A stretch of 64,000 nucleotides of DNA from Nitrososphaerota archaeon (GTDB taxonomy: Archaea > Thermoproteota > Nitrososphaeria > Nitrososphaerales > Gagatemarchaeaceae): contig JAPCJI010000002.1 of NCBI GenBank assembly GCA_027887005.1, positions 124,001 through 188,000 on the forward strand. Reading direction: 5' to 3'. A program made the translations under genes and the position numbers. The notes beneath the pieces were generated by a model. That model had not been told where the DNA came from and made no database searches. It saw only the letters and a program-made list of their open reading frames with translations. Shown one piece after another: positions 33,040 through 46,574 of the stretch (the first letter of the stretch is position 1; each line of letters begins with the position of its first letter).

Positions 33040-35193
33040 CTAATAGCCGACCAGTTCGGCGGCAGCCTTCACAATCCTTTCCTTGTTCGGGATGTAGTGG
33101 TCCTCCATCTTCGCGAGAGGGACGACGGTGTCGAAGCCTGTGACCCGCTTTATTGGCGCCTTCAGGGAGTCCAGGGCCCGGTCCGCGACCGTGGCTGCGA
33201 TCTCGGCTCCGATTCCAAGGGTCCTCGGCGCCTCGTGGACTATGACCAGCCGGCCGGTCTTCTGCACCGACCTGATTATCGTTGGAAAGTCGAGAGGCGA
33301 GATGGTGCGGAGGTCGATTACTTCTGCTGAGATCGAGTGCTCGGCTTTGAGCGCGTCAGCGGCTCCTATGGTCGGGACCATCATGGCTCCGTAGGAGACG
33401 AGGGTGACGTCGGTCCCTTCCCTTACGACCTTCGCCTTGCCGAGTGGGATCGAGTACTCCTCTTCGGGGACCTCCATCTTGGGAGAGTCGTAGAGCCGCT
33501 TTGGCTCCATGAAGATGACTGGGTTGGGCTCGCGCAGGGCCGAAGACAGGAGTCCCTTGGCGTCGTATGGGTTGGATGGGATGACCACCTTGAGCCCCGG
33601 GGTGTGCGCGTAGTATGCCTCTGGGGAATCCGAGTGGTGCTCCGGCGCCCTGATCCCCGCACCATAGGGGAAGCGGATTACTCCTCGGGGCGCGTACCTT
33701 CCCCTGGTCCTGTTCCTCATCCTTGCGACGTGGCTGAATATCTGGTCGAACGCAGGGAGGGAAAAGCCTTCGAACTGGAATTCAGCGACCGGGACCATCC
33801 CTCCTATGGACAGGCCGACGAACATCCCGGCGATTCCCAGCTCCGCGAGGGGGGTGTCGAAGACCCTGTCGGGGCCGAATTCGTCCTGAAGGCCGCGGGT
33901 CACCTGGAAGACCCCTCCGTTTTCGCCCACGTCCTCCCCGAAAACGACGACCCTCTTGTCGCGCTTGAGGCCTTCGCGGAGGGCCATGTTGACTGCGTTC
34001 CTGATGTTGACCCCCGGCCTCCCGCCTGTGGTGGTGGGTTCGACCCCAGGGCTCTGCTCCTGGGGCGGGGGTCCCCCGAAGGCCTCAGCCTTCTCTTCTA
34101 GGAGCGCGGGGGTGGGCGTGGAGTACATGTAATCGAATATCGTCGACGGGTCGAGGGGAGGAATCGCACGGTACGCGGCGACCGCGTCGCTCATCCTCTT
34201 CTGGGCAGACTGGGCGACTGCTTCGACGCTCGCGTCGTCGAGGATACCCCTCGAGCGCAGGTACTTCTCGAACCTCGTTATCGGACTGCGCTTCTCCCAT
34301 TCGGCTACCTCCTCCGGGGCCTTCAGCTTGTTCGATACGAGCTCCGCGGTCGTGTGAGGGCCGAGTCGATAGGTCGAGAACTCGATCAGCGTCGGCCCGC
34401 CCCCTCTTCTTCCCTTCTCCACCGCATATCTCGTCGCCTCGTAGGAAGCGATGGCGTCGTTTCCGTCCACTAGGATCCCCTCGAACCCGTAGGCGACCGC
34501 CTTCTGGGCGATGGTCAACGAGGCTGTCTGCTGGTCTCGCTTGACAGAGATCGCCCACTGGTTGTTCTCGACCGCGAAGACTACGGGTAGGTCGTAGATC
34601 CCCGCGAAGTTGAGCGACTCGTGGAAGTCTCCCTTGGAGGTCCCCCCGTCCCCGACACAGGCGAGGGTCACGGACCTTTCCCCCTGGAGCCACCTCGCCA
34701 TCGCCAGCCCCACGGCATGAGGGAGCTGGGTCGCGACCGGGACTGCGAGCGGTAGCATGTTGAGATTCTCAGGGATCTGCATGCCTCTCTCGTCGCCGCC
34801 CCAGTACTGCAATACCTGGGAGGCGGGCATCCCGAAGGCGAGCATCCCGGCGGCGTCTCTGTACATCGGGACGTACCAGTCCCCCTTGTCCAGGGCGTTG
34901 ATGAAGCCGACCTGGGCGCCCTCCTGTCCTTTTCCGGGCGCGTAGGTGCCGATCTCCCGGAGTGTTGAGAGGTTGCTTGCCTTTTCGTCAAAGACCCGCC
35001 CGAAGATCATCTGCTCGTACATCCTTCTGAGTGCTTCGGGACTGAGGTTGGGCTCCTTTCCCTTCAAGATACCTTCCGAGGTCAACCTCTGGTAGAGCGC
35101 GTCCTCGGCCTTTGAGAACTTGAAGTCTGATTCGCTAAAGATTTTCGGCACTGCGTCTGCTCCCTGGTTCTTCAGGAACTCTGACTCGGTCAA
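33040..35193 (-). CDS. 2-oxoacid dehydrogenase E1 with fused alpha and beta subunits
   Basis: 717 residues. The alpha half (about 1-365) contains the thiamine diphosphate motif beginning at GDGGTSKGDFHESLNFA and ending in VFAVENNQWA. After a Pro/Gln-rich linker (about 372-395, GGPPPQEQSPGVEP), the beta half begins (RNAVNMALREGLKRDKRVVV), with VFGEDVGENGGVF, FDTPLAELGI and the transketolase C-terminal domain. In most archaea and bacteria using this E1 type, alpha and beta are separate genes. The frame is continuous through the linker. Substrate (branched-chain 2-oxoacid, pyruvate or acetoin) is not certain. Starts 4 bases inside lipA. Confidence 0.93.
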   Translation of the reverse strand: MTESEFLKNQGADAVPKIFSESDFKFSKAEDALYQRLTSEGILKGKEPNLSPEALRRMYEQMIFGRVFDEKASNLSTLREIGTYAPGKGQEGAQVGFINALDKGDWYVPMYRDAAGMLAFGMPASQVLQYWGGDERGMQIPENLNMLPLAVPVATQLPHAVGLAMARWLQGERSVTLACVGDGGTSKGDFHESLNFAGIYDLPVVFAVENNQWAISVKRDQQTASLTIAQKAVAYGFEGILVDGNDAIASYEATRYAVEKGRRGGGPTLIEFSTYRLGPHTTAELVSNKLKAPEEVAEWEKRSPITRFEKYLRSRGILDDASVEAVAQSAQKRMSDAVAAYRAIPPLDPSTIFDYMYSTPTPALLEEKAEAFGGPPPQEQSPGVEPTTTGGRPGVNIRNAVNMALREGLKRDKRVVVFGEDVGENGGVFQVTRGLQDEFGPDRVFDTPLAELGIAGMFVGLSIGGMVPVAEFQFEGFSLPAFDQIFSHVARMRNRTRGRYAPRGVIRFPYGAGIRAPEHHSDSPEAYYAHTPGLKVVIPSNPYDAKGLLSSALREPNPVIFMEPKRLYDSPKMEVPEEEYSIPLGKAKVVREGTDVTLVSYGAMMVPTIGAADALKAEHSISAEVIDLRTISPLDFPTIIRSVQKTGRLVIVHEAPRTLGIGAEIAATVADRALDSLKAPIKRVTGFDTVVPLAKMEDHYIPNKERIVKAAAELVGY

Positions 35194-36116
35194 ACCTGAG
35201 TTTCGACCTTGGCGGGAATATAAGACTGACCCCGCGATGACTCCCTTTCAATCGCGGACCGGATGAAGAACTCCCCAGCCCGGTAGCTGCTCCTTACCAG
35301 CGGGCCCGAGGCGACGTAGCTGAACCCGAGGCTCTCGCCCATGGCCCTGTAGCGCTCGAACTGGGAGGGCTTGACGTATTCGGCGACCTCGAGGTGGCGG
35401 CTGGAAGGACGGAGGTACTGCCCCACCGTCAGAAAATCTACCCCGGCCCTGCGAAGGTGCGACATGGCTAGGGCGACCTCCTCCTCTGACTCCCCGAGGC
35501 CCACCATGATCGAAGATTTCGTGTATGCGCCCGGGCTGAGCTTCTTGACGTTCCTGAGGACGGACAGGGACTGCCAGTAGTTTGCCCGGGGATCCCTGGC
35601 CTTTGAGGTCAGCGACAGGGTGGTCTCGATGTTGTGGGCGATGACGTTGGGCCGGGCTTCAACCACAGTCCGCAGGGCGTCCAGGTCTCCCTGGAAATCG
35701 GGGATGAGGACCTCCACGAGCATGCCAGGAGTCTTTTCCTTGACGAGCCTGATCGTGCGGGCGAAGTGCGAGGCGCCTCCGTCCGGGAGGTCGTCTCTGT
35801 CCACGGACGTCAGGACGACGTAGGTGAGGCCCATCTGCGAAAGCGCGAAGGCCACGTTCTCCGGCTCGAGCTGGTCGAGCGCCCCGGCCGGCTTGCCCGG
35901 GGTGACCATGCAGAACCTGCAGGCCCTGGAGCAGACGTCCCCCATCAGCATCAGGGTCGCCGTGCCGCCCCCCCAGCACTCGTGCACGTTCGGGCAGTGG
36001 GCCTCCTCGCAGACCGTGTGCAGGTTAAGGTTCCGGAAGAGGTTCTTGAGCTCGGCGTAGTTCTCCCCCCCGGAAGGCCTGACCGTCAGCCACTCCGGCT
36101 TCTGTTCTGCTAGCAT
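35190..36116 (-). CDS. lipA: lipoyl synthase
   Basis: Radical SAM enzyme inserting two sulfurs into octanoyl-lipoyl domains. 308 residues. Auxiliary cluster ligands in CEEAHCPNVHEC (C-x4-C-x5-C, about 36-47), the radical SAM triad in CSRACRFC (about 62-69), and the C-terminal RSSYRAGE with the conserved Arg-Ser-Ser-Tyr. The start codon lies 2 bases after the regulator stop codon, so it heads the operon regulator-lipA-E1-E2-E3-lipB. Confidence 0.96.
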   Translation of the reverse strand: MLAEQKPEWLTVRPSGGENYAELKNLFRNLNLHTVCEEAHCPNVHECWGGGTATLMLMGDVCSRACRFCMVTPGKPAGALDQLEPENVAFALSQMGLTYVVLTSVDRDDLPDGGASHFARTIRLVKEKTPGMLVEVLIPDFQGDLDALRTVVEARPNVIAHNIETTLSLTSKARDPRANYWQSLSVLRNVKKLSPGAYTKSSIMVGLGESEEEVALAMSHLRRAGVDFLTVGQYLRPSSRHLEVAEYVKPSQFERYRAMGESLGFSYVASGPLVRSSYRAGEFFIRSAIERESSRGQSYIPAKVETQV

Positions 36117-36731: not shown

Positions 36732-39599
36732 TTGAGCGAGCAGAACGTCTTCGAGTTGTTCTCACCGCCTCTGGTCGCGGCCCTGAAGGAGAGGGGGTTC
36801 GATACTCCCACCGACCCCCAGATGAAGCTGGTGCCCCTCGTCAGGGCCGGGAAGAACGCCCTGTTGATGGCCCCGACTGGGACCGGGAAGACCGAGGCGG
36901 CGCTGCTTCCGATCCTGGACTCGATGCTCAGGGAGGGGGACGACAGGGACAAGGGGACGAAGCTGCTCTACATCACCCCTCTGCGGGCGCTGAACAGGGA
37001 CATGCTTGAGCGGATGCAGTGGTGGTGCAAGCGCTTCGACATAAGGCTGGGAGTGAGGCACGGGGACAGCACTCAGGCGGAGAGGACGAACCTCAGCTTC
37101 GCGCCCCCGGAGATCCTGATCACAACCCCGGAGACCCTGCAGATACTTCTGGTGGGAAGGAGGATCCGCCAGAACCTTGCGAAGCTCAGGTGGGTAGTGG
37201 TGGACGAGGTCCACGAACTCGCCGAGGACAAGCGAGGGAGTCAGCTGAGCGTCGGCCTCGAAAGGCTGCGGGACGTGGCTGAGAACGAGTTCCAGATGGT
37301 CGGGCTTTCCGCCACGGTGGGCTCCCCCGAGAGGGTCGCGCGGTTCCTCGTCGGGGAGGGGAGGGAGTGCGAGGTGGTGAGGGTGCCTGTGGAGAAGAGC
37401 CTGGCTCTGAAGGTCGTTTCGCCCAGGGCGACCGGGGAGGACAAGATACTGGCGGAGTCCATCTATTCCTTCCCCGAGGTGATGGCGAGGCTTAGGACCA
37501 TAAGAGAGATCGTCGAGAAGTACAGGTCTGTCCTGATATTCACCAACACCCGGACTGAGGCGGAGGCTCTCGCCAGCAGGTTCAGGGTCTGGGACCCTGA
37601 ATTCAAGATCGGCATTCATCACAGCTCCCTGTCCAAGGCGACGAGGGAGGCGGTGGAGCGGGGTCTGAAGGACGGCAAACTCCTCGGAGTCATCTGCACG
37701 AGCAGCCTGGAGCTGGGCATTGACATCGGGTTCCTGGAGTACGTGGTCCAGTACAACTCCCCCAGGCAGGTCACGAGGCTAATCCAGAGGGTGGGAAGGA
37801 GCGGTCACAAGGTCGGGGAGGTCTCCAACGGGGTCGTGATCACACAGGATTCGGACGACACTCTGGAGGCGGCGGTCCTCTGCAGGAAGTCGGTGGGAGG
37901 GGAGCTGGAGCCCCTTGAGCCTGTCATGGAGCCCTACGACGTTGCCGTCCATCAGGTGGCCGGGCTGCTCATAGAGCAGGGGAACTGGAACTTCTCCGAC
38001 ATCGAGGCCCTGCTCAGGCGGAGCTATGTTTACTCAAGGATGGAGGGGCAGAAGCTGAAGAAGGTCCTGACATACATGAGGGAGAGATACCCGCGGCTCG
38101 CCTACTACAGCGAGTCTGACGGCAAGGTCTTTCGGGCGAGGGACGTCCAGCCACTCTTCAAGTACTATTTCGACAACCTTTCGATGATACCCGACGAGAG
38201 GCAGTACCTCGTCATCGAGGGGGACAACTTCGTCGGCACCCTGGACGAGGCTTTCGTCTCGGAGTACGGCGAGGTGGGGGTGAAGTTCGTCGAGGCCGGA
38301 CGGTGCTGGAAGATAGAGCAGATCTACGGGAACAAGGTGTACGTGAAGTCCGAGGAAGACCCGACCGGGGCGGTCCCCAATTGGGTGGGGGACGAGATTC
38401 CTGTCCCCAGGGAGGTGGCGGCCGAGGTCGGGATGATACGGAGGAGGTACGCCGAGGAGATCGAGAAGGGGAAGGGAGGCGAGTATGTGGACGAGCTCTG
38501 CATGACCTACCCGGTCGCGAAAGAGGCGATGGTCGAGGCCCTGAAGGAGGTGGCCGAGCAGCAGGGAGCGGGGCTTCCAATCCCGTCGGAGAGGCTGGTG
38601 ACGGTCGAGAGGTGGGACAGGTATGTGGTGATTCAGGCTGCCTTCGGGCACAAGGTGAACAGGCTTCTGGCGAGGGTGCTCGGATACATGATTTCGGAGA
38701 GGATGGGCCAGTCGGTGGCCGTCCACCAGGACCCCTACAGGATGGTGATCGAGGCTGACGTTGCCCCGTCGATGGTCCTCTCGGTCCTGGACGAGCTGTA
38801 CGGGCTCGACCTGAAGGCGACCACTGAAAAGGCGGTCGAGAGGAGCGGGATCTTCAAGCGGAGGCTCATACATGCCGGGAAGAAGTGCGGGGCCATTGCC
38901 AAGGACGCTGAGTACGCCAGCGTTTCCATAGCCGGGCTGATCGAGTCCCTGAGAGACACGCCTGTCTACGAGGAGGCCATGAGCATGATCTTCCACGACG
39001 ACCTGGACGTGGCGAGCTCGGCGGACGTGCTGGAGAAGATCCATGCCGGAGCGGTGGAGGTGAAGGTGATCGAGTCTGAGGGGCTTTCGCCCATCGCCAG
39101 GATCGGGGTGGAGGAGATCAGCAGGCGGGGAGAGATAGTCTCCCCCGAAAGGCTGAGGGCTCTGCTCAAGCAGTCCACGAGGGCGAGGGTCAACGACACC
39201 TTCCTGGTGGCCGTCTGCACCCGCTGCTGGAACTTCCTGGAGCTGAGGAGGGTGGAGGACCTCGACGGGCTGGTGAAGTGCCCAGTCTGCGAGAAGGACC
39301 AGATAGGGCTCTCGACTGACTCATACGAAAACGTGTTCTCCCTGGCGATGAAGGCGAGGAGCAGGGCCGACATGCGTGGGAAGAAGCTCCGGGTGGTCGA
39401 GAGTCTGAAGAAGTCGGCCGAACTGAGGCGGGAGTACGGCCACGCGGCAGACATGCTGATCGCGGGGAGGGGCATCAGGCTCACGGACGCGGCTGCGCTG
39501 GCGTCCAAGATGAGGAAGGAAGGAAAGGACCTTGTGGAGCTGATCATCGACGGCGAGAGAGAGGCGCTCAGGCGGCGCTACTTCTTCGGGGCTTCCTGA
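36732..39599 (+). CDS. Lhr-type superfamily 2 helicase, copy 1
   Basis: 955 residues. Helicase motifs: Walker A MAPTGTGKTEAA (about 46-57), ITPLRALNRDM, DEVHELAEDKRG (motif II), GLSATVGSPE (III), IFTNTRTEAEALASRF, TSSLELGIDIG and QRVGRSGHK (VI). The long C-terminal region matches the Lhr core (winged helix and beta-barrel). It then has a zinc ribbon (CTRCWNFLEL...VKCPVCEKDQ, about 825-855). Lhr enzymes are 3'-5' DNA or RNA-DNA translocases in repair. TTG start after a GGTGAGGG stretch. Its 3' end overlaps the KITE-like gene by 22 bases, convergently. Confidence 0.92.
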   Translation: MSEQNVFELFSPPLVAALKERGFDTPTDPQMKLVPLVRAGKNALLMAPTGTGKTEAALLPILDSMLREGDDRDKGTKLLYITPLRALNRDMLERMQWWCKRFDIRLGVRHGDSTQAERTNLSFAPPEILITTPETLQILLVGRRIRQNLAKLRWVVVDEVHELAEDKRGSQLSVGLERLRDVAENEFQMVGLSATVGSPERVARFLVGEGRECEVVRVPVEKSLALKVVSPRATGEDKILAESIYSFPEVMARLRTIREIVEKYRSVLIFTNTRTEAEALASRFRVWDPEFKIGIHHSSLSKATREAVERGLKDGKLLGVICTSSLELGIDIGFLEYVVQYNSPRQVTRLIQRVGRSGHKVGEVSNGVVITQDSDDTLEAAVLCRKSVGGELEPLEPVMEPYDVAVHQVAGLLIEQGNWNFSDIEALLRRSYVYSRMEGQKLKKVLTYMRERYPRLAYYSESDGKVFRARDVQPLFKYYFDNLSMIPDERQYLVIEGDNFVGTLDEAFVSEYGEVGVKFVEAGRCWKIEQIYGNKVYVKSEEDPTGAVPNWVGDEIPVPREVAAEVGMIRRRYAEEIEKGKGGEYVDELCMTYPVAKEAMVEALKEVAEQQGAGLPIPSERLVTVERWDRYVVIQAAFGHKVNRLLARVLGYMISERMGQSVAVHQDPYRMVIEADVAPSMVLSVLDELYGLDLKATTEKAVERSGIFKRRLIHAGKKCGAIAKDAEYASVSIAGLIESLRDTPVYEEAMSMIFHDDLDVASSADVLEKIHAGAVEVKVIESEGLSPIARIGVEEISRRGEIVSPERLRALLKQSTRARVNDTFLVAVCTRCWNFLELRRVEDLDGLVKCPVCEKDQIGLSTDSYENVFSLAMKARSRADMRGKKLRVVESLKKSAELRREYGHAADMLIAGRGIRLTDAAALASKMRKEGKDLVELIIDGEREALRRRYFFGAS

Positions 39600-40132
39600 G
39601 CCCTGGCGAGTATCATGGTCATCAGCGTCTTCTCGTCGACCTCAGCTCTGGTCCGCCAGCCGACGTGGAGCATGGCCCTGTCGTCCTGCTCCAGGTACCC
39701 CCTCTTGACATACCTGTCCAGGGAGTACTCGACCCTCCACTTCGGGAACTTCTCTCGGAGGAAGTGCTCCACCTCTCTCCTGGCTGCCCTCCCCTGCTTG
39801 GAATTCACGAAGGCTATGGTGCTTGCGAGGACTGCGAGGTCGTCGATCCTGATCCCTGACGTCTCGGCTTCGCTGACGGTAGGAGGCTCCCGGAACCGCA
39901 GGAGGAAGCGGGAGGAGTCCTCGGTCCCGTCCACGCCCTTGACTTCGAAGACCTCGAGGCCGAGCGCCGCGACGTCCTCGCCGAGGACCTCGACTATCTT
40001 CCGGTAGTCCCTTCCAAGATAGCGCTTCATCTCCCATCCCTTGACCCCGGGGTTCCTTCCCCTTTGGAGGATGAGAACCTGGAAGGCCTTCCTCACCTTC
40101 CTCTCCAGGAGTGCCCTGTCTGTTGATTCCAT
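39578..40132 (-). CDS. KITE/MAGE (Nse3)-like winged-helix protein
   Basis: 184 residues. About residues 1-105 read like a MAGE/Nse3 winged-helix half (LGEDVAALGLEVFEVKG followed by a strand SSRFLLRF). Residues 105-165 form a second predicted winged helix (DLAVLASTIAFVNSKQG, EVEHFLREKFPKW, DRYVKRGYLEQ). Tandem winged helices next to an SMC and a kleisin define KITE subunits (ScpB, MukE, JetB, Nse1/Nse3). Identification is by pattern, not by search. It starts in a TGATG overlap with the kleisin-like stop, so the two are translationally coupled. Confidence 0.65.
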   Translation of the reverse strand: MESTDRALLERKVRKAFQVLILQRGRNPGVKGWEMKRYLGRDYRKIVEVLGEDVAALGLEVFEVKGVDGTEDSSRFLLRFREPPTVSEAETSGIRIDDLAVLASTIAFVNSKQGRAARREVEHFLREKFPKWRVEYSLDRYVKRGYLEQDDRAMLHVGWRTRAEVDEKTLMTMILARAQEAPKK

Positions 40133-40890
40133 CAGGGCTCACCAACTATCGAAATGGCGACCGACTTCGTCGGCCCCTTCGCCTTCTCCGTGAGGGCGGT
40201 CGTCCAGATCCTGCCGGTCAGCGGCTCGGTCTTGAGGGAAGCCCTCCCCTCGCTGATCAGGAACGCGAGGAGGTAGCCCTTGAGCACCTGGGCCTCGAAG
40301 GTCTCTGACTGGATGAACTCCCTGTAGTCGACCCACTCGCCGTTTGACTTTTCGAGGAGTTCGTCGTGGAGGTCCTTGAGGTTCTGCTCGAACTGGTCCT
40401 TGGTGAAGACCCCCAGCGAGATGAGCTCCTCGTAGCCCACCGAGCCCGGCCTGGTCCCGTAGCTCCCGAACTCGTCCTTGAAGCGCTCGGCCATGGGGGA
40501 GAGGTCCCGCCAGTAGATGAAGGCCCTCTCGAGCCCCTTCGGGGAGAGCTGGTCGACCTGCGCGACCGGATGCCAGCTCCTGATGAAGGCCTCCGAGAGG
40601 GCTTCCTTGGCTAGGAGCTTGACCTTCAGCTGGATGAGCAGGGGGTCGATGTAGAGGGAGGAGGCCCTGTGCTTGAGCCATTCGTCCTGGAGCTTCACTA
40701 TCTGGGCGAGCTCGAGCAGGGCTTCGGAGTCGACGAGCAGCTCGTCGAGGAACTTCCACTCGGGGAGGCGCTCCTTGAGCACCCGGATCTTTTCTTTGAT
40801 GTCGACGTCGAAGGGGTCGGCGGAGCTGGACTCGACGGAGCGGCAGAGCTCTATCACCCGCATGAGGTCCTCGAGCTTGTCCCTGTCCAC
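40132..40890 (-). CDS. kleisin-like SMC partner (ScpA/Nse4-like)
   Basis: 252 residues, acidic and helical. The N-terminus SSADPFDVDIKEKIRVLKE resembles the DPFD(V/I)DI helix with which ScpA kleisins grip the SMC neck. A middle helical segment follows (DSEALLELAQIVKLQDEW, IDPLLIQLKVKLLAKEAL). The C-terminus looks like a winged helix (QVLKGYLLAFLISEGRASLKTEPLTG) suited to binding an SMC head. It lies one base after the SMC stop. No catalytic motif seen. A remote-homology search or structure prediction would settle it. Confidence 0.6.
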   Translation of the reverse strand: MDRDKLEDLMRVIELCRSVESSSADPFDVDIKEKIRVLKERLPEWKFLDELLVDSEALLELAQIVKLQDEWLKHRASSLYIDPLLIQLKVKLLAKEALSEAFIRSWHPVAQVDQLSPKGLERAFIYWRDLSPMAERFKDEFGSYGTRPGSVGYEELISLGVFTKDQFEQNLKDLHDELLEKSNGEWVDYREFIQSETFEAQVLKGYLLAFLISEGRASLKTEPLTGRIWTTALTEKAKGPTKSVAISIVGEP

Positions 40891-40891
40891 G

Positions 40892-42898
40892 CTACTTGAG
40901 CTCCTTGACTTCGGACGCGCCGTGGACCGCCTGGACGGCGATCACGTGGGCGCTCCTGTCGAAGACAGTGAGGATCGACGGGGTGATGACCAGGTACTGG
41001 GAGGCTTCCCTCTGCTTCATCTGGGACAGGATCATCTTGAACATCGCTTCGCGGTTCCTCGGGTCCATGTGTATGTCGAACTCGTCCATGGCCCTGAGGG
41101 GTGAGACTATCCTGGCCTGGAGGGAGAGGATGAAGGCCATGAGGGCCACCGATCGTTCGCCCCCGCTCTGGGTGAAGGGGTCGAGGGTCGTGGGGGAGCC
41201 GCCCCGGAACCCGACGTAGAGCTGGATGCCTGCGTCCTCGATGTCCGCGCCCTCCTCGAACTTGATGAAACCGCTGGCGTCCGCGGCGGCGAGGACGGCC
41301 TGGTAGGGGGGGTCGACCGACTCGACTAGGCTGTCCATGGCCCGCCTCCAGACGTCCTTCCGGGTTTCGAGCTCGCCCAGCATCGCCTTCTTGTTTTCCT
41401 GCAGCTGGGCGAGCTTGACCTTGAGCTCGTCGATGTTGCCGGAGTAGTCGTTGTAGATCTTCTCTGCGTCGTCGGGGACGTCCTGCATCTTCTGGATGTG
41501 GGCGGAGACAAGCTTGAGCTCCTCTGAGACCTCGTAGGGCTGGCGGAGGGTCTCGACCCTGGCGCCTGCCTTCTCCAGGTCGGGGGCCAGCTTCTCGAGC
41601 TCGCCCTTGTATTCGCGGGCGCTGCGTTCGAGGTCGCGGAGGTCGGACTCGGTGACCTTGATCCTGTAGGACAGGACTTCGGACTTCACCCGGAAGGAGA
41701 TGTAGCTCTCCATGGTCCGCTTGACAAGCTCCTCGGTCCGGCTGATCTCCGGCTGCAGGATGGAGACCTCCCTTTCGAGGTCAACCTTCCTCCGCTTCGC
41801 GTCCTCTTCGGCCGACGCGCCCTTGCCGGAAATGTAGTCTACGACCTCCTTGATACGCTTCGTGCTCTTCTCGGGGCCCTTCGCAAGGAGCTCGTCGACA
41901 GTGACTGAGAGGCCGGCCAGGTCCTCCTTGATGCTCCTGTAGGCGTTCTCAGCAGACTCGTCCTTGGCCTTGTCGGATTCGGCCCTGACAAGCGCGAAGT
42001 ACAGCTTCCTCAGGTCCACCTGCTTGTCCAGGAGGGTCTGGTGGGTCTGGTCGGCGTCCGCCGCCACCTCCGCCTGCTGGGACTTCAGGTCTTCGAGGGC
42101 CCTCGTCTTTGCCATGATCTTCTCCTGGGCCGATTGAAGGGATTTGCTCAGCTTCGCCTCGGTGCTCCAAAGGAGCTCGCGGGCCAGCAGTTCGCGGTGC
42201 TCGATGAGCCTCCGCTTTTCCTGGTACCTGTCGTAGACCTGCTTCCAATACTCGAGGGCCTGGTTTGCGTTGTCGATGAGCTGGAGAAGGGAGCTCTCCT
42301 CTCCGATGAGCCCGCCCAGCTCCTGTTCTGCCAGGAGGATCCTCTGCCTGAACTCCGCGAAGCCGACTGCCTCTTCGACCATCCTCAGACGCTCCTGAGG
42401 GGTCACCGCGCCCAGCTCCTCGATCATTCCCTGGTGCATTATGATGAGAAGGTTGTCCGGGTTGATCCCGAACTCGCTGAGGAGTCTGACGACTTCGCTC
42501 TTGTCTATCTCCTTGTAGTCTGCCTCGAACCAGTAGGAGCCGTCCCGCTTCAGATACCTGCTGAGCATGAACGTGTCTGATTTGGAGTAGGGGATGGGGC
42601 GTCTGCCCTTCTTGACCGAGTTGTCGAAGATCAGGGAAACCCTCGCAATGTCCTTCCCCCGGCGGATCAGGTCCGAGAGCTTCCTCGAGCGCTCGGTGTA
42701 CGCCTGGCCGAAGGCCACGGAGATCGCGAGCAGGACCGAGGACTTGCCCGCGCCGTTGGGCCCGACGATGAGGTTGAGGCCCTCCCGGAGGGGGATTCTT
42801 GCGTATTCGTAGCTCATGAAGTTCTCCAGGATGATCTCTTTGATCGTAGTCTGGGGGAGGGTCGCCTCTTTGGAGACTTCCTCGGTTCGCCTTGACAA
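40892..42898 (-). CDS. short SMC/Smc6-like ABC ATPase
   Basis: 668 residues. N-terminal head: IILENFMSYEYARI, Walker A GPNGAGKSS (about 46-54), and a Q-loop region ending LLIIMHQGMIEELG. Two coiled-coil arms (about 175-330 and 360-530). C-terminal head: ABC signature QSGGERSVALMAF (about 577) and Walker B LRAMDEFDIHMD (about 601-612). NFMS at the start, and DEFDxxMD followed by NR, are hallmarks of Smc5/Smc6-like proteins. The arms are short, and I see neither a standard hinge domain nor a CxxC zinc hook. TTG start with a TCTAAATC box about 30 bases upstream. First gene of the SMC-kleisin-KITE operon. Confidence 0.9.
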   Translation of the reverse strand: MSRRTEEVSKEATLPQTTIKEIILENFMSYEYARIPLREGLNLIVGPNGAGKSSVLLAISVAFGQAYTERSRKLSDLIRRGKDIARVSLIFDNSVKKGRRPIPYSKSDTFMLSRYLKRDGSYWFEADYKEIDKSEVVRLLSEFGINPDNLLIIMHQGMIEELGAVTPQERLRMVEEAVGFAEFRQRILLAEQELGGLIGEESSLLQLIDNANQALEYWKQVYDRYQEKRRLIEHRELLARELLWSTEAKLSKSLQSAQEKIMAKTRALEDLKSQQAEVAADADQTHQTLLDKQVDLRKLYFALVRAESDKAKDESAENAYRSIKEDLAGLSVTVDELLAKGPEKSTKRIKEVVDYISGKGASAEEDAKRRKVDLEREVSILQPEISRTEELVKRTMESYISFRVKSEVLSYRIKVTESDLRDLERSAREYKGELEKLAPDLEKAGARVETLRQPYEVSEELKLVSAHIQKMQDVPDDAEKIYNDYSGNIDELKVKLAQLQENKKAMLGELETRKDVWRRAMDSLVESVDPPYQAVLAAADASGFIKFEEGADIEDAGIQLYVGFRGGSPTTLDPFTQSGGERSVALMAFILSLQARIVSPLRAMDEFDIHMDPRNREAMFKMILSQMKQREASQYLVITPSILTVFDRSAHVIAVQAVHGASEVKELK

Positions 42899-43010
42899 GA
42901 TTCTTACCCGCGCAGGCCTGTCCAGGATTTAGACCTTGCGCGGATTTGGATTACTTTCGGAGTTCCCTCCCCCGAAATCCCTTAAATGAACGGTGGAGGT
43001 TTCATGTCTG

Positions 43011-45854
43011 TTGGTCCCTGAAAGTTCATTCGAAGGACTTGCTCCTCAGGTCAGGGGGCTCCTGGAGGAGGCGGGGATCAGTGAGCCGACGGCTCCCCAG
43101 GTCAAGGCATGGCCACTCGTTTCACGCGGCGAGGACGTTCTGATCATAGCGCCGACGGGCTCGGGGAAGACCGAAGCCGCCATCCTGCCTCTGCTCAGCA
43201 GGCTCGTGGAGAGGGGACATGGGGAAGGGATTTCGCTGCTGTACATCACCCCCATGCGTGCCCTGAACAGGGACATGCTCAAGCGACTCCAGATCTGGTG
43301 CGGCAGGCTTGGGCTCACGGTCGACATCAGGCACGGCGACACCCCGCAGGCTCAGAGGACGAAGCAGTCGTCCCACCCCCCAGACGTCCTGGTGACCACC
43401 CCGGAGACCCTGCAGGCGATACTCCCAGGGAGCAGGATGAGACAGAACCTTTCGCACCTGAAGGCCGTGGTGGTCGACGAGCTGCACAACCTGGTGGAGA
43501 GCAAGAGGGGGGTTCAGCTGTCGGTGGGGTTACAGAGGCTGAGGAAGGTGGCTCCGAGGTACCAGCTGGTCGCGCTGTCGGCGACCGTCGGGACTCCGGA
43601 CGTCGCGGCAGAGTTCATCTTCGGCGGGGGCAAGCGGACGATAGTCAGGGCGGAGACACCGAAGGAGTTCTCGTACGCGATCGAATATCCGGTCCCCGAC
43701 CCGGCGGACCAGTCGGCTGCGAAGAAGACCTACGCAGCACCCGACTTGGCGGCAAGGCTGTCGAGGATCAACAGCCTGATCGAGGAGCACAACTCGACCC
43801 TGATCTTCGTGAACAGCAGGACCGTGGCGGAGATGCTGGGGGAGAAGCTTGCTAGGCTGAGGAAGGACGTGGGAGTTCACCACGGTTCGCTGCCGAGGGA
43901 AGAGAGGGAGAGGGTCGAAGGGGCGTTCAAGTCGGGACAGTTGAAGGCGCTGGTCTGCACGAGCACCCTGGAGCTCGGGATCGACATCGGTTCGGTCGAC
44001 CTGGTCGTCCAGTACATGTCCCCGAGGCAGGTCACTTCCCTGGTTCAGCGGGTGGGGAGGAGCGGGCACAGGCTCGGGAGGGTCTCCAAGGGAGTCCTGG
44101 TCACGGTGTCCGCGGACGACATCATGGAGTCGGCGTCGAGCATCATCTCTGCGGCGAAGGGGAGGATCGAGCCGACCAGGCCCTACGCGAATTCTCTGGA
44201 CGTGCTCGCCCACCAGGTCGCGGGGTACTTGATGGACTTCGAGTCCATGGACGGGGACCTTCTGCTGAAGGAAATCAGGAAGGCAGCTCCGTTCCGGGGG
44301 CTGAGCGACGAGAGCTTCAGGAGGACGGTCGGGTATCTTTCGGAGCTGGGGAAGCTAAGGTTCGACGGCAAGACTCTTTCCAGGACGAGGATGACCAGGG
44401 ACTACTACTTCGAGAACCTTTCGATGATCCCCGACGAGACCAGGTATCTGGTGGTGGACCTGTCGACCAACGAGACGGTGGGCATCCTCGGGGAAGAGTT
44501 CGTTCTGCTCAAGGCGAAGGTGGGAGTCCATTTCATCTGCAAGGGTAAGATCTGGCAGATCGAGCAGGTCGCGGAAGACAGGAAGATCTACGTCACTCCG
44601 GTGGAGGACCCGCTGGCGGCCCTGGCCACCTGGGACGGAGAGATGCTCCCCATTCCTTTCGACCTCGCCATGGAGACGGGCAGGCTCAGACGCTCGATTT
44701 CGGAGGCGCTGGACGTCGGGGAGAAGGCTGTGGAGGAGGCTGTCGGGGAGATACCCGGGGAGGCTGCCGCGAGGGCTCTGGTGGTGGACGAGATCGCGGA
44801 GCACAAGAAGATGGGAGCGCCCGTGCCGTCCGACAGGCTGATTCTCTTCGAGGGGTTCGGAAAATATCTGATCGCACATCTGTGCTTCGGAGAGTCGGTC
44901 AACAGGACCTTCGCCTACGTCTTCGAGGAGATACTTTCCAGGAGAGGGTTGGTCAGAGTCTGGTGGCTGGATGGCTACAGGTTGCTGCTGGAGCTCACCG
45001 CCGACACCGAGGACCTCGACCTCAGGGCCCTGTCCAAGGAGCTGATGGGAATCAGCCCCGAGGAGCTCGAGAGGACCTACGCCGTGGCGGCCCAGCGCAA
45101 CTTCCCATTCCCGGCCCGGGTCAAGTACGTGGCCGAGAGGTTCGGCGCCCTGAAGAGAGGGAAGCTTATCGCCCATCCCAACCTTTGCTCCCTTCCGACC
45201 CGGTTCGAGAGGACGCCTGTTTTCGAGGAGGCTCTTCAGGAGACGGCCAGGGACCTCATAGACATGGAGCATGGGAAGGAGATCCTGACGCTCGTCGCCG
45301 ACGGAGGGATATCCGTGGAGACGTTTCTGGCAGGGGACAGGCCGACCCCCATAGCCTACAGCCTCCTCTACAGGTACCTTGAGGTGCCGGAGGCGGTCGC
45401 CCCCGATTCGCTCGGCAGGTCATCCTACCAGAGGATGAAGGCGAGCATATTCGGGACCGACGTGAGCCTGCTCTGCATGAAATGCGGGACCGACCAGGGT
45501 CAGACCAGCGTCGGGGAGCTGCCGGAGGACCCGAAGTGCACCTCGTGCGGATCGGGCCTTCTGGTCCCCTGCTACTGGGGGACGGGGAAGGTCGCCGACA
45601 TTCTCGAGAGGAGGGCGGGGAAGGCTTCGCTCAACGAAGAGGAGAAGGCCGAGCTTTCGAAGGCGAGGAGAGCTGCGGACCTTGTGCTCTCCTATGGGAA
45701 GAAGGCCGTGGTCGCCCAGACTGTCTACGGGATAGGGCCCCAGACCGCCTCGAGGATACTCGCCGAGATGCAGGACGACGAAGAGGCGTTTTACCGTGAC
45801 CTGCTCGAGGCGAAGATACGATTCGTTACGACGAGACCGTTCTGGTCTAACTGA
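43011..45854 (+). CDS. Lhr-type superfamily 2 helicase, copy 2
   Basis: About 947 residues. Walker A APTGSGKTEAAI, ITPMRALNRDM, motif II VDELHNLVESKRG, LSATVGTP, LIFVNSRTVAEML, TSTLELGIDIG and QRVGRSGHR. A C-terminal Lhr core and a zinc ribbon (CMKCGTDQGQT...KCTSCGSGL), then a helix-hairpin-helix-like tail (VYGIGPQTASRILAEM). It is related to copy 1 but clearly diverged. The frame is open to GTG 42993, but a TTAAAT box at 42982-42987 makes that start impossible for its transcript; TTG 43011 fits. Divergent from the SMC operon (start 42898), so both could be co-regulated. Confidence 0.92.
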   Translation: MVPESSFEGLAPQVRGLLEEAGISEPTAPQVKAWPLVSRGEDVLIIAPTGSGKTEAAILPLLSRLVERGHGEGISLLYITPMRALNRDMLKRLQIWCGRLGLTVDIRHGDTPQAQRTKQSSHPPDVLVTTPETLQAILPGSRMRQNLSHLKAVVVDELHNLVESKRGVQLSVGLQRLRKVAPRYQLVALSATVGTPDVAAEFIFGGGKRTIVRAETPKEFSYAIEYPVPDPADQSAAKKTYAAPDLAARLSRINSLIEEHNSTLIFVNSRTVAEMLGEKLARLRKDVGVHHGSLPREERERVEGAFKSGQLKALVCTSTLELGIDIGSVDLVVQYMSPRQVTSLVQRVGRSGHRLGRVSKGVLVTVSADDIMESASSIISAAKGRIEPTRPYANSLDVLAHQVAGYLMDFESMDGDLLLKEIRKAAPFRGLSDESFRRTVGYLSELGKLRFDGKTLSRTRMTRDYYFENLSMIPDETRYLVVDLSTNETVGILGEEFVLLKAKVGVHFICKGKIWQIEQVAEDRKIYVTPVEDPLAALATWDGEMLPIPFDLAMETGRLRRSISEALDVGEKAVEEAVGEIPGEAAARALVVDEIAEHKKMGAPVPSDRLILFEGFGKYLIAHLCFGESVNRTFAYVFEEILSRRGLVRVWWLDGYRLLLELTADTEDLDLRALSKELMGISPEELERTYAVAAQRNFPFPARVKYVAERFGALKRGKLIAHPNLCSLPTRFERTPVFEEALQETARDLIDMEHGKEILTLVADGGISVETFLAGDRPTPIAYSLLYRYLEVPEAVAPDSLGRSSYQRMKASIFGTDVSLLCMKCGTDQGQTSVGELPEDPKCTSCGSGLLVPCYWGTGKVADILERRAGKASLNEEEKAELSKARRAADLVLSYGKKAVVAQTVYGIGPQTASRILAEMQDDEEAFYRDLLEAKIRFVTTRPFWSN

Positions 45855-45890: not shown

Positions 45891-46574
45891 TTGGTTCTAG
45901 CGGGAAAGGTCTTCGTGGTGAGGGAGAACTTCGACATGGACGTGCTGGCGGAGAAGCTGAAGGCTTTCAGGGTGGAGACCGAGAGCACTGTCGAGGACCA
46001 AGAGTTCAAGCTGGTTTCTGAGATCAGGGACCTTTCGGCCGGGAAGGGGACCCTGGACGGGACGTTCTCCTTCGACTCGGTGTTCGTCGTGAGGCACAGG
46101 GGGAAGCCCGTTCCAGTGCCGAGGACCTACGAGGCGCCGTTCTCGTTCTATCTCTTCAAGGACAGGCTCTTCCTGACTGTCTACGACAAGAAGAACAGGG
46201 CGAACAACATCGCCAACGAGATAAGCAAGGCGGTGTTCATGAGCCTCGGCCAGGTGGTGGAGGCTAGGATCGACCCGGAGACGCTGAGGAAGTTCCATGA
46301 GAAGAATTTTGACGAGACGAAAATTGTGTTCTTCGACGAAGTGGACATACCGAACATCAACAAGCTGTCACTCTACGGGGATGCTTTGGGGAACACGTCG
46401 CTCTACTCCGACTACCTAACTCATGGGAAGCTCTGGTACATCGTGCTGAAGAGCTCCAAGACCGGGTATGTGCTTGGCGTGACGAGGAACTGCGTCGTGA
46501 CCGGGTTCAGCAAGATGGAGATTTCAGAGTTCGCCTCCTTCATCAAGGGAGAGATACTCCCGCTGATAGCGTGA
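45891..46574 (+). CDS. unknown protein between Lhr helicase 2 and the phosphoesterase
   Basis: 227 residues, soluble, mixed alpha/beta, rich in charged and aromatic residues. I do not recognise a family. Notable segments: FVVRENFDMDVLAEKLKAF at the start, FYLFKDRLFLTVYDKKNRAN in the middle, KIVFFDEVDIPNINKLSLYG, and LWYIVLKSSKTGYVLGVTRN near the end. TTG start with CATTAACG some 30 bases upstream. It lies 36 bases after the helicase and one base before the phosphoesterase, so a shared transcript and function with the Lhr/SMC region is inferred. Confidence 0.75.
   Translation: MVLAGKVFVVRENFDMDVLAEKLKAFRVETESTVEDQEFKLVSEIRDLSAGKGTLDGTFSFDSVFVVRHRGKPVPVPRTYEAPFSFYLFKDRLFLTVYDKKNRANNIANEISKAVFMSLGQVVEARIDPETLRKFHEKNFDETKIVFFDEVDIPNINKLSLYGDALGNTSLYSDYLTHGKLWYIVLKSSKTGYVLGVTRNCVVTGFSKMEISEFASFIKGEILPLIA

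Follow-up and report, generated by a model that had tools for sequence, protein, structure and literature searches.

Among the eukaryotic SMC complexes Smc5/6 is the least understood, and where in the prokaryotes it came from is disputed. A relative encoded by just three archaeal genes would offer a tractable model for the origin of Smc5/6, and an operon of SMC, kleisin and KITE genes in an archaeal genome (1.6 Mb, 26 contigs) raises the question of whether it encodes such a relative and, if so, how the encoded proteins might act on DNA. Archaeal SMC complexes have been said generally to lack a kite subunit (PMC7055376), and SMC complexes have been said to be absent from Thermoproteota (PMC12153180). 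The operon described here qualifies both statements.

The window, which is the whole stretch of 64,000 nucleotides that was analysed, carries the three genes on its minus strand in the order SMC (42898..40892, 668 amino acids, Pfam SMC_N 2.1e-35), kleisin (40890..40132, 252 amino acids) and KITE (40132..39578, 184 amino acids), according to the ORF coordinates. This is the arrangement that the original prediction had drawn from the letters of the DNA, including the gap of one base between the SMC stop and the kleisin start and the TGATG overlap at the kleisin/KITE junction; the kleisin start codon is GTG. The same order recurs in nearly all of the homologous loci compared and is thus not due to chance. 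The SMC gene product is an ATPase as proposed, and the proposed TTG start is plausible rather than established. An Lhr-type helicase gene (36732..39599, plus strand; Pfam DEAD_assoc 1.1e-32, WH_Lhr 5.6e-13) converges with the KITE gene and overlaps its end by 22 bp. On the opposite flank, a divergent intergenic region of 94 bp (42899..42992) separates the SMC gene from a second Lhr-type helicase paralogue (42993-45854, plus strand), which is followed by ORF227 (45891..46574, plus strand), a conserved protein of 227 amino acids with no Pfam family.

All the ATPase motifs are present in the SMC protein and in its family alignment. The Walker A motif GPNGAGKSS (residues 46-54, 42737..42763) includes eight invariant residues (G46, P47, N48, G49, G51, K52, S53 and S54), the ABC signature QSGGERS lies at residues 577-583 (41150..41170), and the Walker B and D-loop motif AMDEFDIHMD is encoded at 41063..41092, all on the minus strand. 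The catalytic E606 and the Q-loop Q156 are likewise invariant. Searched alone against the PDB, the window SMC has yeast Smc5 as its closest match (7.7e-31), followed by Smc6, and the top bacterial or archaeal Smc is found at 3.3e-19. A profile built from 21 members gave the same ranking, with Smc6 at 1.2e-68, Smc5 at 1.4e-66, archaeal Smc at 7.5e-49 and Smc2 at 2e-45, which places Smc5/6 about 60 bits ahead of canonical SMC in raw score. Foldseek with the SMC model retrieved Smc heads of many kinds, Smc5/6 included, and does not discriminate. A tree of head domains, in which three long-branched fragments of Smc5 and Smc6 were the only eukaryotic SMCs, united the family with Smc5 and Smc6, apart from the canonical and Asgard SMCs, at an ultrafast bootstrap of 97%. 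Within that tree, a constraint placing eukaryotic Smc5/6 with canonical SMC was rejected (AU p = 1e-4), and one placing it with the Asgard 831-amino-acid SMC was not (AU p = 0.21). By sequence comparison, the window SMC is therefore classed as Smc5/6-type rather than condensin-type, its heads being nearest to Smc5 and Smc6.

Single-sequence searches of Pfam, NCBIfam, PADLOC and the PDB returned no significant match for the window kleisin or KITE, and family profiles and folds were therefore used. The kleisin begins with the motif ADPFDVDI (40798..40821, minus strand; family consensus DPFxVDV, P26 invariant) and ends in a winged-helix region at about residues 165-245 (40156..40398, minus strand) that aligns with Nse4 and archaeal ScpA. 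Its family profile matched yeast Nse4 (4.1e-5) and human EID3 (4.6e-5) ahead of ScpA (0.012), and Pfam Nse4_C was found in 16 of 20 family members (top 8.6e-8). These profiles indicate an Nse4-type kleisin and bear out the kleisin identity first proposed. The relation to ScpA is also visible: in hhalign, the family and archaeal ScpA from the sampled genomes aligned along the C-terminal domain with a probability of 87% (E 3.7e-6), and ScpA ORFs that follow canonical Smc genes were picked up by the kleisin profile at 2e-5 and 5e-5. A match of the same profile to a designed PPR protein was discarded as a repeat artefact made up of seven weak overlapping pieces.

The KITE protein was modelled by AF2 as two winged-helix units (monomer pLDDT 90.9, pTM 0.78). 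The top four Foldseek matches were chains of Nse1-Nse3-Nse4 and MAGE-G1/NSE1 structures (4.8e-7, 3e-6, 9.9e-6 and 9.9e-6), followed at lower ranks by MukE (4e-4), JetB (4.1e-4) and ScpB (9e-3). Weak Pfam matches to MAGE (6 of 21 family members, top 0.0067) and Nse1 (2 of 21, top 0.049) accompany the fold. The tandem winged-helix, MAGE/Nse3-like protein seen in the original reading is thereby upheld, and the predicted fold together with the family assigns this KITE to the Nse1/Nse3 type. Since both KITE types, Nse1 and Nse3/MAGE, were matched, a single ancestral KITE preceding their divergence is suggested. The operon contains one KITE gene, and thus no pair of the Nse1-Nse3 heterodimer kind.

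The feature that had been overlooked is the absence of a hinge. In the AF2 monomer model, analysed with DSSP, the SMC arms form a bare helical hairpin without a zinc hook: an N-terminal arm helix (residues 181-337, 41888..42358), a six-residue turn at the apex where a hinge domain is expected (residues 338-343, 41870..41887), and a C-terminal arm (residues 344-538, 41285..41869) with a joint at 445-477, all on the minus strand. Confidence is reduced in the apex region (pLDDT 65-78), which is also the least conserved stretch of the SMC alignment and is variable in length. A hinge HMM was positive in none of 39 family SMCs, with nothing better than 0.36; the same profile scored 1e-37 to 1e-46 with canonical SMCs and 1e-34 to 1e-38 with the Asgard 831-amino-acid relatives. 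The Pfam matches listed for the window SMC, like those shown for the 21 members, did not include SMC_hinge, which in the same genome matched the canonical Smc at 4.6e-18. Across the 21 aligned members, the mid-region spans 262-380 residues, contains few prolines and has a cysteine at no conserved position. When a CXXC zinc hook was sought, no cysteine turned up in the arms of the window SMC, and those of its relatives had 0-2 scattered ones. Smc5, Smc6 and the Asgard relatives bear hinges, and loss of the hinge in the lineage of the window SMC is therefore the simplest reading.

Hingeless arms have precedents. Rad50/ASRP proteins also have no hinge domain between their arms, but they possess the CXXC zinc hook that the archaeal SMC lacks. 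A hinge-less SMC has been reported from marine actinobacteria (PMC12153180); it shares the arms without a hinge domain, but it is reported without kleisin or KITE partners and branches within bacterial SMC. Compared with the eukaryotic Smc5/6 core, the archaeal operon is alike in its SMC heads, its Nse4-type kleisin and its tandem winged-helix KITE, and differs in having one SMC gene instead of two, a hingeless SMC with short arms, and one KITE gene instead of two, with no RING on the KITE.

The operon is widespread. With membership set at E below 1e-60, 70 of the 151 Thermoproteota genomes sampled contain the SMC family, mostly in single copy, and 68 contain KITE. The two share 67 genomes; among the exceptions is one genome (G035) in which a contig ends inside the SMC gene. 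The family is absent from all listed genomes of one related family (f2). Named relatives of the SMC include Bathyarchaeota, Thaumarchaeota, Methanomethylicota, Thermofilales, Calditenuaceae and a Methanodesulfokora, which places the host in Thermoproteota as GTDB defines that phylum, and the nearest named locus, at 64% identity, belongs to 'archaeon isolate 13_2'. The operon order is retained in most families and is split in two loci. It also reaches Hadarchaeota, where most of the 28 genomes searched matched near 1e-230, so that the survey of gene order proposed at the outset found it conserved in both Thermoproteota and Hadarchaeota. Among the neighbours, the convergent Lhr helicase lies beside KITE in 16 of 46 loci, and ORF227 is divergent beside the SMC gene in 18 of 43. 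ORF227 is present in 70 of the 151 genomes, 65 of them in common with SMC; both Fisher values for co-occurrence are inflated by common ancestry and are therefore no more than suggestive. ORF227 is regarded as a candidate subunit or co-factor of the complex.

Loci of the same order were found in Asgard archaea, with SMCs of 831-840 amino acids, kleisins matching at 1e-7 to 1e-10 and KITEs at 1e-13 to 1e-14; these are hinge-bearing cousins of the window complex. Genomes L116-L119, from the phylum of a Lokiarchaeota MAG, carry such loci; the SMC bears a hinge in L116-L118 and is truncated in L119. In Asgard archaea, L121, L125, L126 and L127 carry a second SMC type of about 1126 amino acids with a divergent hinge, followed by weak kleisin-like and/or KITE-like ORFs, and apparently encode a further, uncharacterised SMC-kleisin-KITE complex. 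As a source of Smc5/6, these longer SMCs are disfavoured by the tree (AU p = 0.029). In Hadarchaeota, L146, L147 and L148 contain a canonical-type SMC of just 730-775 amino acids that adjoins an ScpA-like kleisin and resembles a short-armed condensin.

The same genome encodes a canonical hinge-bearing Smc, followed by ScpA-like and ScpB-like ORFs, which were called from their position and the look of their sequences. The operon thus adds to the canonical complex and does not replace it. Pfam ScpA and ScpB models did not match the operon proteins. PF02616 is absent from the genome, and this model is insensitive in the phylum (25 of 151 genomes); a reading of the genome as having no ScpA was dropped, since an ScpA-like ORF sits behind the canonical Smc. 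Canonical archaeal Smc-ScpA(-ScpB) shares with the operon an SMC and a related kleisin, but the hinge and long arms are found only in the canonical Smc. Archaeal ScpB has been found not to bind ScpA (PMC7055376).

The three genes probably specify an archaeal SMC-kleisin-KITE complex of Smc5/6 type whose SMC hinge was lost and which maintains chromosomes or repairs DNA by acting as an ATP-gated clamp or tether. Because there is one SMC gene and no hinge, it is called Smc5/6-like, and no Smc5/6 holocomplex is implied. For its subunit contacts and stoichiometry, we infer that two identical SMC heads would bind ATP and engage, and that the Nse4-like kleisin would link the heads at neck and cap while carrying the KITE, which is probably a homodimer in place of Nse1-Nse3. 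Heads, kleisin and KITE would together clamp double-stranded DNA atop the engaged heads, and ATP hydrolysis would free it. In yeast Smc5/6, the heads with Nse1/3/4 are reported to clamp DNA (PMC9191643). The archaeal clamp or tether would act beside canonical Smc-ScpA-ScpB, and a function in repair is suggested by analogy and by the Lhr neighbour. A more specific version is put forward tentatively, in which the complex is a minimal homodimeric relative of Smc5/6 that only clamps DNA, possibly with ORF227 as a fourth subunit, and whose single KITE predates the Nse1/Nse3 split.

Yeast Smc5/6 extrudes DNA loops, and the operon had likewise been predicted to encode a self-contained loop-extruding complex. 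From that proposal the family affinity of the three proteins to Smc5/6 stands, but the extruding ring is unsupported, since the SMC has neither a recognisable hinge nor a zinc hook and there is no warrant for assuming the closed tripartite ring known from other SMC complexes. The arms could still pair mutually or with another protein. A true loop-extruding small ring, dimerised at the apex or through a protein such as ORF227, would fit the presence of heads, kleisin and KITE and the co-occurrence of ORF227 with SMC; moreover, the SMC hinge and the Rad50 hook have been shown to substitute for each other as dimerisers (PMC6969161), so that another dimeriser could serve. This ring is nevertheless rather unlikely, given that no hinge was detected among the 39 members, that hook cysteines are not conserved, and that the apex varies so much in sequence and length. 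With no hinge and with arms that would not close a large ring, an ATP-gated clamp or tether is the likeliest mode of action, and two heads clamping DNA, with kleisin and KITE as the bridge between them, are favoured over a closed ring. The likeness to Smc5/6 might also be a product of long-branch attraction, in which case the operon would encode a condensin-like organiser redundant with the canonical Smc. The long eukaryotic branches in the tree and the reach of the kleisin profile to archaeal ScpA speak for this, yet it appears improbable: the kleisin leads to Nse4 and the KITE to Nse1/Nse3 independently of the SMC tree, Smc5/6 leads in the raw scores, and published analyses also group archaeal SMC5/6-related sequences with SMC5/6 (PMC9389158).

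A role in defence had been offered as an alternative to chromosome maintenance. Human Smc5/6 restricts episomes (PMC10586767), the SMC-kleisin-KITE logic is that of JetABC, and the KITE model also resembles JetB, all of which would suit a Wadjet-like system against plasmids or viruses with its effector encoded elsewhere. Such a system is nonetheless very improbable here. The original prediction noted no JetD-type nuclease in the operon, and none was detected genome-wide either, JetD_C having no match in the genome while a control genome was positive. PADLOC JetA and JetB models matched neither kleisin nor KITE, and the JetC match (4e-10) was weak and due to generic SMC/coiled-coil similarity. 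Presence in nearly half of the sampled phylum, absence from the listed f2 genomes and conserved neighbours are unlike sporadic defence genes. Wadjet JetABCD and MksBEF/MukBEF share with the archaeal operon its kleisin-KITE-SMC logic and a KITE fold resembling JetB and MukE, but in sequence and in the fold of the KITE the archaeal proteins stand nearer to Smc5/6, and JetD is missing. The SMCs of Wadjet and MksBEF/MukBEF carry a hinge. A housekeeping role is indicated by the lineage-wide, mostly single-copy occurrence, the conserved neighbours and the lack of JetD. This lack, together with the presence of a canonical Smc-ScpA-ScpB locus in the cell, favours chromosome maintenance over plasmid defence, for which no positive evidence was found.

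Archaeal SMCs described as 'SMC5/6-related' were reported in 2021, as cited in PMC9389158, and that group very probably includes the window SMC. PMC9389158 mentions neither kleisin nor operon and, in the parts consulted, does not discuss the hinge status of these proteins. In the literature searched, no description was found of an operon that joins such an SMC to Nse4-like and Nse1/3-like partners in three genes, of its hinge loss or of its ORF227/Lhr neighbourhood; a preprint from 2024 that deals with the prokaryotic roots of SMC complexes may overlap and may already have described archaeal kleisin and KITE partners. With its hinge absent, the complex would directly test whether SMC action on DNA needs a closed ring.

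Elsewhere in the window, a 717-amino-acid ORF (33040-35193, minus strand) resembles by eye a fused alpha-beta E1 of pyruvate/2-oxoacid dehydrogenase, and it adjoins an ORF (35190-36116) that looks lipoyl-synthase-like, also by eye.
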